From the NCBI GenBank assembly GCA_003169975.1, contig PNAA01000055.1:1-32682 (forward strand): a DNA stretch of 32,682 bases, read 5' to 3'. The stretch comes from Spartobacteria bacterium. Its GTDB lineage: Bacteria > Verrucomicrobiota > Verrucomicrobiia > Chthoniobacterales > UBA10450. Made by a program: the position numbers and the translations under genes. Below, in pieces: positions 28,047 through 30,565 of the stretch. The notes beneath the pieces were generated by a model. It ran no database searches. It had not been told where the DNA came from and was given only the letters and a program-made list of their open reading frames with translations. Position 1 is the first letter of the stretch; each line of letters opens with the position of its first letter.

Positions 28047-28913
28047 ATGCTCATCGATACTCATGCCCATCTCGATTACCCGGATTTCGCCGACGACTTT
28101 GATGAAGTGCTCGCGCGAGCGAACGAAGCCGGCGTCAAACGCATCATCGCCATCGGCACCTCGCTCGCCAGCAGCCGGCGTGCGGTCGAGCTGGCGGAAA
28201 AATATCCGAATATTTTTGCCGTCATCGGGGTTCATCCAACCAGTGCCGAGGAAGCTCCGGACGACATTATCACCCCCCTGCGCGAGCTGGCGAAAAGCCC
28301 GCGCGTCGCGGCCATCGGCGAGACCGGACTCGACTACCATCGTCTGCCCAGCGCGGTCGTGGCGCGCGAGCGGAAATCGCAGGTAATTTCAGGCGCTTTG
28401 CAGGCCGAAACCGACGACGGGATCGAGAGCGAAATTCACGACGGCGCACTCAAGAGCAAGCAGGCGAGTTTGTTTCAGCAGCAACTCGACCTCGCAGTCG
28501 AGCTTCGGCTTAACGTCGTCATCCATCAGCGCGATGCGTGGGCCGACACGCTCGAAGTAATGCGCGAATATGGGCGCAAAGTGAGCGGCGTGTTCCACTG
28601 CTTCGGCGGTACGAAGGAACAAGCGGAAGAGGTCATCGCGCTCGGTCACCTCGTTTCTTTCACCGGCATCGTGACCTTCAAGAATGGCGCCGCCGTCCGC
28701 GACGTCGCCGCGGCCCTTTCGTTAGGCGAATTCATGGTCGAAACCGATTGCCCCTATCTCGCGCCCGTCCCCTTTCGCGGGAAGCGCTGCGAACCAGCCC
28801 ACACCCGCCTCGTCGCCGAGAGCATCGCCGCCGCGCGCGGGATCAGCCTCGAGGAAGTGGCTCGCGCCACGACCAAGACGGCGGAGGAATTTTTCCGGCT
28901 CAACGGCGCATGA
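28047..28913 (+). CDS. TatD family metal-dependent hydrolase
   Basis: A 288-residue TIM-barrel metallohydrolase of the TatD family, reported as a DNase with 3'-5' exonuclease or repair roles. Metal ligands are visible: H7 and H9 in LIDTHAHLDYPDF, Glu in IGETGLDYH, His in VIHQRDAWADTLEV, His in FHCFGGTKEQ and Asp in VETDCPYLAP. Between GLDYHRLP and QQQLDLA is a polar stretch of about 35 residues (28350-28480), longer than in typical TatD. The stop overlaps the next start (ATGA, 28910-28913). A TCGTTAGGC copy lies at 28719. Confidence 0.92.
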   Translation: MLIDTHAHLDYPDFADDFDEVLARANEAGVKRIIAIGTSLASSRRAVELAEKYPNIFAVIGVHPTSAEEAPDDIITPLRELAKSPRVAAIGETGLDYHRLPSAVVARERKSQVISGALQAETDDGIESEIHDGALKSKQASLFQQQLDLAVELRLNVVIHQRDAWADTLEVMREYGRKVSGVFHCFGGTKEQAEEVIALGHLVSFTGIVTFKNGAAVRDVAAALSLGEFMVETDCPYLAPVPFRGKRCEPAHTRLVAESIAAARGISLEEVARATTKTAEEFFRLNGA

Positions 28914-29530
28914 GCTGGCGTTTCATTGTCCGACTTCTTGCTGCCGTTGCCCTGACTTCGTTAGGCGCTTCCTGCGCCGCGCCTGATCGACGGCATCAGG
29001 TGATCGTCAGTATTCCCGAACAGCGGATGGCGTTGCTCGAGGATGGTGCCCCACTCGCCACCTACCCGGTCTCGACGTCGAAGTTCGGACTCAGCGACCT
29101 TCCCGGGAGCAGCGGGACGCCGCTGGGCACGCTCGAGATTGCGCAAAAAATTGGCAGCGGCGCGCCCAGCGGCGCCGTCTTCAAGGATCGGCGTCAGACC
29201 GGCGAAATCGTGCCGCCCGACGCGCCGGGCCGCGATCCGATCGTGACGAGGATTCTTTGGTTGCGCGGCGAAGAGCCACAGAATGTGCGGGCTTATTCGC
29301 GCTACATCTACATTCATGGCACGCCGGAGGAACGAAACATTGGCCTGCCCGTCAGCTACGGTTGCATCCGCATGCGCTCGCGCGACGTGATCGAGCTTTT
29401 CAACGTCGTCGGGACCGGCGCCCAGGTCAGAATCGCGGACGCGCCGCTCGAAGCGCTCGTCCCGGGATTACCGCCGGCCGCGATCCGCGTCGCGACGTGG
29501 CGCGCGCCGCCGGATTGGGAGATTCGTTAG
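28910..29530 (+). CDS. L,D-transpeptidase (YkuD) lipoprotein with altered active-site His
   Basis: A 206-residue YkuD-domain protein. I chose the ATG at 28910, which overlaps the tatD stop, because it gives a lipoprotein signal ending in LGASC (C22). The catalytic region is YIHGTPEERN...VSYGCIRM, with H136, C152 and R154. The usual SHGC is SYGC here, with Tyr150 in place of the second His. That His normally supports the catalytic site, so activity may be changed, although the first His, Cys and Arg remain. It would act on peptidoglycan in the periplasm. Two TCGTTAGG copies occur, one in the signal peptide (28958) and one at the stop (TAG, 29528-29530). Confidence 0.87.
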   Translation: MSWRFIVRLLAAVALTSLGASCAAPDRRHQVIVSIPEQRMALLEDGAPLATYPVSTSKFGLSDLPGSSGTPLGTLEIAQKIGSGAPSGAVFKDRRQTGEIVPPDAPGRDPIVTRILWLRGEEPQNVRAYSRYIYIHGTPEERNIGLPVSYGCIRMRSRDVIELFNVVGTGAQVRIADAPLEALVPGLPPAAIRVATWRAPPDWEIR

Positions 29531-29539
29531 GGCCTAACG
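29525..29539. terminator. Inverted pair of the abundant word between convergent genes
   Basis: CGTTAGG (29525-29531) and CCTAACG (29533-29539) form a 7-base inverted repeat with one base between. It lies at the stop of the L,D-transpeptidase gene and 13 bases before the end of the convergent gmd gene. A loop of one base cannot fold as drawn, so a stem of about 6 pairs with a 3-base loop is the realistic form. The layout resembles the paired uptake sequences that serve as terminators in Neisseria, but no T run follows. Confidence 0.6.
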
Positions 29540-29551
29540 CCTGCTATTCGA

Positions 29552-30565
29552 TCACGGGAGTTGCCCGAGCTGCTCCCGGGCGGTCGGTTGCGCCAGCAGC
29601 TTCAGGTCGGCGTCGACCATCAGTTCGACCAGTTCGCGGAAGCGGACTTTCGGTTCCCAATCGAGAATCTTCTTCGCTTTGGCGGGATCGCCGATCAGCA
29701 GGTCCACTTCCGCCGGGCGCTCGTAGCGTTGATCGTGCTTTACGTATTCTTTCCAATCGAGGTCGACGCGACCGAATGCGATCTCGAGAAATTCGCGGAT
29801 GGTGTGCGTCTCGTTGGTCGCGAGGACGAAATCGTCGCCGGCATCGTGCTGCAGGATGCGCCACATGCCCTCGACGTATTCCGGCGCGTAGCCCCAGTCG
29901 CGTTTGGCCTCGAGGTTGCCGAGGAAAAGCTCGTGCTGCAGGCCATGCTTAATCGCCGCGACGGCGCGGGTGATCTTGCGGGTGACAAACGTTTCACCAC
30001 GGCGCGGACTCTCGTGATTGAACAAAATCCCGTTGCTCGCGCAGAGCCCGTAACTTTCGCGGTAGTTCACCGTCGCCCAGTAGGCGAACACTTTGGCCAC
30101 ACCATACGGACTGCGCGGCCAAAACGGCGTCGTCTCCGTCTGCGGCACCTCCCGCACCTTGCCGAACATTTCACTGCTCGAGGCCTGATAAAAACGGGAG
30201 CGCACCCCGGCTTCGCGGATCGCCTCGAGGATGCGAATCGTCCCGACGCCACTGACATCGGCCGTGTATTCCGGAATGTCGAAGCTGACCCGCACGTGGC
30301 TTTGCGCGCCGAGGTGGTAGATCTCGTCGGGCTTCAATTCGTAAATCAGCTTCACGAGGCTCACCGAGTCGCTCAGGTCGCCGTAATGCAGGAACAGCCG
30401 GACGCCGTTGATGTGCGGGTCCGCGTAAAGATGATCGATGCGCGAAGTGTTGAAGGTGCTGGCCCGCCGAATGATGCCGTGGACCTCGTAGCCTTTCTGG
30501 AGGAGCAGATCGGCCAGGTAGCTGCCGTCCTGCCCGGTAATCCCGGTGATCAATGCTTTCGTCAT
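29552..30565 (-). CDS. gmd: GDP-mannose 4,6-dehydratase
   Basis: A 337-residue SDR-fold enzyme that converts GDP-mannose to GDP-4-keto-6-deoxymannose, the first step to GDP-fucose, GDP-rhamnose or related sugars. The NADP-binding motif [14 protein letters not shown] lies at about 8-21. The active-site motifs are SSSEMFG and the YGVAK tetrad pair. [15 protein letters not shown] and [14 protein letters not shown] are Gmd signatures. Length fits. No fcl (GDP-fucose synthase) gene is in the window, so the end product is unknown. The glycosyltransferase at 16888 is not linked. Confidence 0.95.

Follow-up and report, generated by a model that had tools for sequence, protein, structure and literature searches.

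The 15-bp inverted repeat CGTTAGG-G-CCTAACG between two convergent genes of a Spartobacteria bacterium is best explained as one copy of a dispersed uptake-type word that has become fixed at a stop codon, accompanied by a younger mirrored copy. We hold the case for this explanation to be evenly balanced. The repeat was read at 29525-29539 of the window, i.e. the whole stretch of 32,682 nt analysed here, which corresponds to contig 44 in a draft genome of 4.47 Mb (G000). The first arm of the repeat is one copy of the strand-symmetric word TCGTTAGGC, which one verrucomicrobial clade accumulates and conserves at dispersed sites. In the sense frame CGT TAG, such a word is tolerable only at the end of a gene. 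The second arm may be a later mirrored copy that has fallen into the unconstrained 21 bases in front of gmd. The resulting palindrome is not a U-tailed intrinsic terminator and would at most be a weak two-way 3'-end hairpin; any role of the pair at the 3' end is putative.

An earlier note had placed an inverted word pair at 29524-29540, where the L,D-transpeptidase and gmd genes meet, and had assigned the TAG stop to its first half. Both statements are correct, except that the exact span is one base shorter on each side (GAGATT precedes and CCTGC follows the pair). The first arm (29525-29531, plus strand) is the word CGTTAGG in the 9-base context TCGTTAGGG, the final base of which is off the consensus TCGTTAGGC. 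It contains the TAG at 29528-29530, which follows CGT as last codon and terminates the L,D-transpeptidase (YkuD) ORF at 28538-29530 on the plus strand (PF03734, 2.4e-20). The start of this gene is uncertain: The ORF list gives GTG at 28538, a simple gene caller 29000, and the domain begins at about 28997. A single G at 29532 forms the spacer, and this gap of one base is the over-represented spacing (see below). The second arm (29533-29539) carries the word on the minus strand in the 9-base context GCGTTAGGC, whose initial base is off consensus. The convergent gmd gene, encoding GDP-mannose 4,6-dehydratase, extends over 29552-30565 on the minus strand (PF16363, 1.1e-141). The gmd product shares 87% identity with a protein from a metagenome assembly of Verrucomicrobia (AV19) and 81% with one labelled Chthoniobacter flavus, which identifies the genome as verrucomicrobial; its assignment to an order is tentative. 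The stop codons of both genes are 21 bases apart, and the entire second arm is located within these 21 bases. The minus-strand transcript can also form a CGGGAG...CUCCCG hairpin inside gmd just upstream of its stop codon (29552-29580), the first stem of the computed fold.

The word is abundant. CGTTAGG is present in 26 copies in the window compared to 1.96 expected upon shuffling, and genome-wide in 2956 copies (1431 on the plus and 1525 on the minus strand) compared to 861 copies of the reversed word. In a 433-kb sample of G000, TCGTTAGGC is the top over-represented 9-mer with 215 occurrences vs. 3.5 expected, and the flanks of this 9-mer are nearly information-free (≤0.14 bits). Among 321 words, 269 (84%) are located inside genes, for which the background is 79%, and 10 lie between convergent genes, where the background is 5.2%. 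Strand use did not differ among 21 stretches of G000 (chi-square P = 0.28), and a replication-polar word of the KOPS or Chi type was rejected accordingly. Another word, TGTTGTAGAC / GTCTACAACA (GTTGTAG, 10 copies vs. 0.68 expected), is over-represented in the window to a weaker degree and precedes the word pair in locus L116, too.

High abundance of the word is specific to one clade. The 8-mer CGTTAGGC is plentiful in all five genus members searched as well as in G005 and G014, which represent two further genera of the same family. It is slightly raised in some other genera of the family (e.g. G024 and G022), close to or under the control count in most others and rare, far under the control count, in the remaining families of this order. 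Words are also kept in place. At loci picked regardless of word content, 22 of 54 aligned cases have the word at the orthologous position, and the permuted controls reach 137/757 (P = 2e-4); this count replaces the value of 40/67 from word-chosen loci. G014 harbors, in addition, another dispersed word, AGATCGACA, in the context (GC)AAGATCGACA(A/T), which was counted 114 times over 60 kb, or 1.9 per kb (L239-L241, e.g. L239:6963 and L240:7811). G000 and G003 have hardly any copies of it (about 0.01 per kb). Where two copies are close to each other, they mostly form direct repeats with a distance of 15-17 bases. It might represent a different uptake-type word of a sister genus.

Two properties expected from the DNA uptake sequence (DUS) of Neisseria and the uptake signal sequence (USS) of Pasteurellaceae were found here: over-representation of the word genome-wide on both strands and conservation at orthologous places beyond background. 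With the Pasteurellaceae USS, the word shares a 9-base core, dispersal and a location largely inside genes. It differs from the H. influenzae USS, for which a 3' AT-rich extension is reported (PMC1852404), in having no such extension. Abundance, dispersal, conservation and clade distribution fit an uptake-type word, short of proof of uptake. Judged from these sequence properties, the word most likely marks self DNA for uptake or recombination in one verrucomicrobial clade. ComEC (PF03772), the sole competence gene searched for, was found in six of six genomes, word-rich and word-poor alike, and therefore does not discriminate for or against an uptake role. Literature searches on uptake sequences together with Verrucomicrobia, Chthoniobacter or Udaeobacter gave no pertinent work, and no uptake experiment on this clade, among the matches listed, which does not prove absence from the literature. 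A search with the letters of the word itself yielded no title on a genome-wide bacterial word among the matches listed.

The letters of the word also recall a recombination site. The attC/attI core of integrons is GTTRRRY, and attC sites consist of paired cores, GCCTAAC...GTTAGGC, that are tens to about 100 bases apart and occur in arrays. GTTAGGC fits this core pattern, and the word might be a recombinase site. Furthermore, a genome of another family (G038) contains same-strand runs of CGTTAGGC with spacings of a few hundred bases that resemble cassette arrays (C7:94047-97613, C13:25-1452 and C21:53993-56302). However, the words in G000 are dispersed and mostly located inside genes, and for distances up to 200 bases, the attC-like order shows no excess (9 pairs vs. 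8 in the order seen at our locus and 14 on the same strand in the 433-kb sample). As this sample was partly placed around known pairs, its short-range pair counts were used only for this attC comparison (<200 bases). These arrangement counts largely exclude an attC-type pairing, and an integron-type recombination core is extremely unlikely.

The two arms of the pair are distributed differently among the relatives. The first arm is shared: The L,D-transpeptidase gene ends with CGT TAG G in five word-rich genomes (G000, G001, G003, G004 and G014), one of which belongs to another genus. In G006, it ends with CGT TAG C, and the word-poor genomes G010 and G017 lack the word at this position. The second arm is private to G000; after the same stop codon, it is missing in G001, G003, G004, G006, G014 and G017. 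A palindrome that is not private was found at L123, at the end of a histidine-kinase-like gene. There, all seven genomes have the first arm. The second arm is perfect in G001, G003 and G004; in G000, it is interrupted by a single insertion, in G002, it deviates by one substitution, and G005 and G014 lack it. Beyond this palindrome, the sequences no longer align. At L119 and L129 (from G001 and G003) and at L125 (from G004), a palindrome is found at the boundary facing a peptidase gene, though the last gene in front of it differs. In L119 and L129, a gene with an ORF6N domain is located between a conserved upstream gene and the palindrome. The corresponding stretch of G004 (L125) has no such gene, and the palindrome directly ends the conserved upstream gene. 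In persisting palindromes, either each word is kept singly or the pair has a role.

The arrangement at our locus, CGTTAGG...CCTAACG, is designated +-, the opposite order -+, and direct repeats are termed tandem. With gaps of 0-10 bases, G000 has six +- pairs vs. about 5.4 expected from the copy numbers on both strands, and no -+ pairs. In seven word-rich genomes, 125 +- and 93 -+ pairs with gaps of 0-30 bases were counted compared to about 186 each under random placement. Close pairs as a whole are at or below chance, if anything depleted, and the counts from G000 and from the seven genomes rule out that inverted pairs are generally in excess. For a single window such as this one, about 0.06 close inverted pairs are expected (13 x 13 / 32682 x 11 gaps), which makes the presence of one mildly unusual. 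Degenerate second arms with 5-6 matches of 7 at gap 1 after single words are not in excess in 433 kb.

In Neisseria, inverted DUS pairs serve as rho-independent terminators according to three publications (PMC1852404, PMC2397512, PMC3630211). For N. meningitidis Z2491, the first of these lists 226 +- and 5 -+ pairs within 10 bases among 1892 copies. The verrucomicrobial word resembles the DUS: It is short and dispersed with about one copy per kb and equal strands, and inverted pairs are found at gene ends or between convergent genes. In contrast to the DUS, the word has no overall pair excess, no strong +- bias, no T tail and a favored spacing of exactly one base, and its uptake specificity is putative.

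The earlier note had read the junction as a Neisseria-like terminator layout. At this locus, the pair is not followed by a T tail, and no terminator-like site was found in 29400-29700. On the transcript of either strand, it can fold into a stem of 6 bp closed by a loop of 3 bases (-5.9 and -4.8 kcal/mol), which is not better than shuffled sequences (z-scores 0.08 and -0.07). It shares with an intrinsic terminator an inverted repeat at a gene end but not a stable hairpin followed by a T tract. In addition, U-tailed hairpins are not enriched after stop codons in G000 (8 of 277 stops vs. 31 of 1500 random stretches). Across all loci, a T tail follows a single one of the 34 gene-end +- pairs, namely that of L004 and its duplicate L005. 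Downstream of a gene, these loci (G000 C18:131154 and C18:137723; also G002 C111:914) contain a gap-5 pair as part of a perfect 15-bp stem with CTTTTT behind it, and here the word is included in a true terminator form.

L004/L005 as well as the combination of convergent gene ends with an inverted pair would be in line with a Neisseria-type intrinsic terminator made from an uptake-word pair. Pairs at gene ends were indeed found, though tandem pairs (7/13) are located there, too. The large excess of close pairs with a strong +- bias is missing. Since G000 has six pairs where about 5.4 are expected, no U-tailed excess at stops and, at 29525-29539, neither a T tail nor a fold above shuffle level, a U-tailed terminator at this site was rejected, and a Neisseria-type terminator is very unlikely. 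Whereas Neisseria uses such pairs as terminators, G000 does not do so routinely, and it shows little sign of U-tailed terminators at all. The pair alone, which the earlier note had taken to strengthen the uptake reading, does not do so: The terminator analogy is unsupported, and close pairs are at chance genome-wide. Copy number, dispersal, word conservation and clade-specific abundance are better support.

Among all spacings, only the gap of one base stands out. CGTTAGG-S-CCTAACG is present 21 times in the seven genomes compared to an expectation of 6.0 (Poisson P = 1.5e-6 if shared ancestry is disregarded), and its spacer is C or G in 21 of 21 pairs. By our own grouping, the 21 pairs correspond to 16 loci once shared neighborhoods are merged. 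In the other 76 genomes of the family searched, this form was found twice. The locations of all 21 gap-1 pairs, of 50 of 104 other +- and of 43 of 93 -+ pairs from the seven genomes were examined, with identical flanks (L004/L005) counted once. Genes were predicted with a simple caller (codon score plus start bonus) trained on G000 and applied to the relatives, too.

Gap-1 pairs coincide with stop codons. In 14 of 21 cases, the stop of a called gene is located in an arm; read in the direction of the gene, it is the TAG of CGT TAG in the first arm. An arm also holds a stop in 12/50 other +- pairs (P = 0.001 vs. gap-1) and 4/43 -+ pairs, and 23/321 single words carry one. When a gene-end position was defined as overlapping a stop or lying at most 60 bases after it, it applied to 15/21 gap-1, 19/50 other +-, 11/43 -+ and 7/13 tandem pairs, 48/321 single words and 4.3% of random 15-mers. 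The stops at gap-1 palindromes are credible because all nine tested genes ending in such a palindrome carry Pfam domains. Two convergent stops within one palindrome were found at L119 only among the 14 stop-carrying palindromes and are ruled out as a general cause. The palindrome is in excess at TAG stops across the clade, and the preference for CGT TAG GSC CTA ACG is real on present counts. The clustering at gene ends, for which a search had been proposed, was confirmed insofar as inverted pairs are commoner there than single words and the exact gap-1 form is enriched and sits on stops; it does not extend to an excess of close pairs overall. The outcome named in the earlier note as refuting its reading, equal frequency of inverted pairs at gene ends and elsewhere, was thus not observed.

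Part of these data counts against the explanation preferred here. A second arm that is a mere chance neighbor predicts no favored gap, and gap 1 is favored. Likewise, the stop is located in an arm of 14 of 21 gap-1 but only 4 of 43 -+ pairs, and at L123, three species have a perfect palindrome and two a nearly perfect one. This suggests maintenance of certain gap-1 palindromes as whole units. CGT TAG GSC CTA ACG might be a dedicated gene-end element, selected for coupling a stop codon to a two-way 3' boundary without U tail, for instance by polymerase pausing or exonuclease protection. The gap-1 excess, the stop in the arm and the Pfam domains of the genes concerned speak in favor of such an element, and so do the retention of the palindrome after a conserved gene in G001, G003 and G004 while the following sequence diverged and the palindrome at the end of the L119/L129/L125 array with the same facing neighbor and a different last gene. 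We nevertheless consider it unlikely: A hairpin role should prefer gaps of 3-8 bases, which allow better stems, and a ribosome terminating at a stop codon within the stem would presumably melt it. In addition, a T tail was found in one of 34 gene-end pairs, and at our locus, the second arm is private and folds no better than shuffles. Quite doubtful is an extended version, in which a clade-own uptake-type word fused with a stop codon would make the 15-base palindrome a selected U-tail-free two-way gene-end element that unites stop, uptake tag and 3' boundary and is kept at operon ends amid sequence turnover.

Alternatively, relaxed constraint alone might let words and pairs pile up at gene ends, where non-coding sequence and the TAG and TAA frames are free, and the pairing would have no function. 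Tandem pairs, which cannot form a hairpin, are located at gene ends in 7 of 13 cases, a small sample encountered incidentally in loci retrieved on account of other pairs; this points partly to relaxed coding constraint. The same applies to -+ pairs (11/43 vs. 15% of single words) and to the total of close pairs at or below chance. However, relaxed constraint leaves one favored gap length unaccounted for, and gap-1 pairs carry the stop more often than other +- pairs (14/21 vs. 12/50). On its own, it is rather improbable.

At 29525-29539, a word fixed at the L,D-transpeptidase stop with a younger mirrored copy next to it remains the best explanation, and this pair should not be annotated as a terminator. 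The location of gap-1 palindromes on stop codons is statistically clean but odd: The preferred gap follows neither from the abundance of the word nor from the stability of a hairpin, since chance would favor no gap and stability a longer one. Uptake words have been established chiefly in Neisseriaceae and Pasteurellaceae. An uptake-like word in Verrucomicrobia, abundant in some genera but not in sister genera, would provide a further independent case of the origin and spread of such words.
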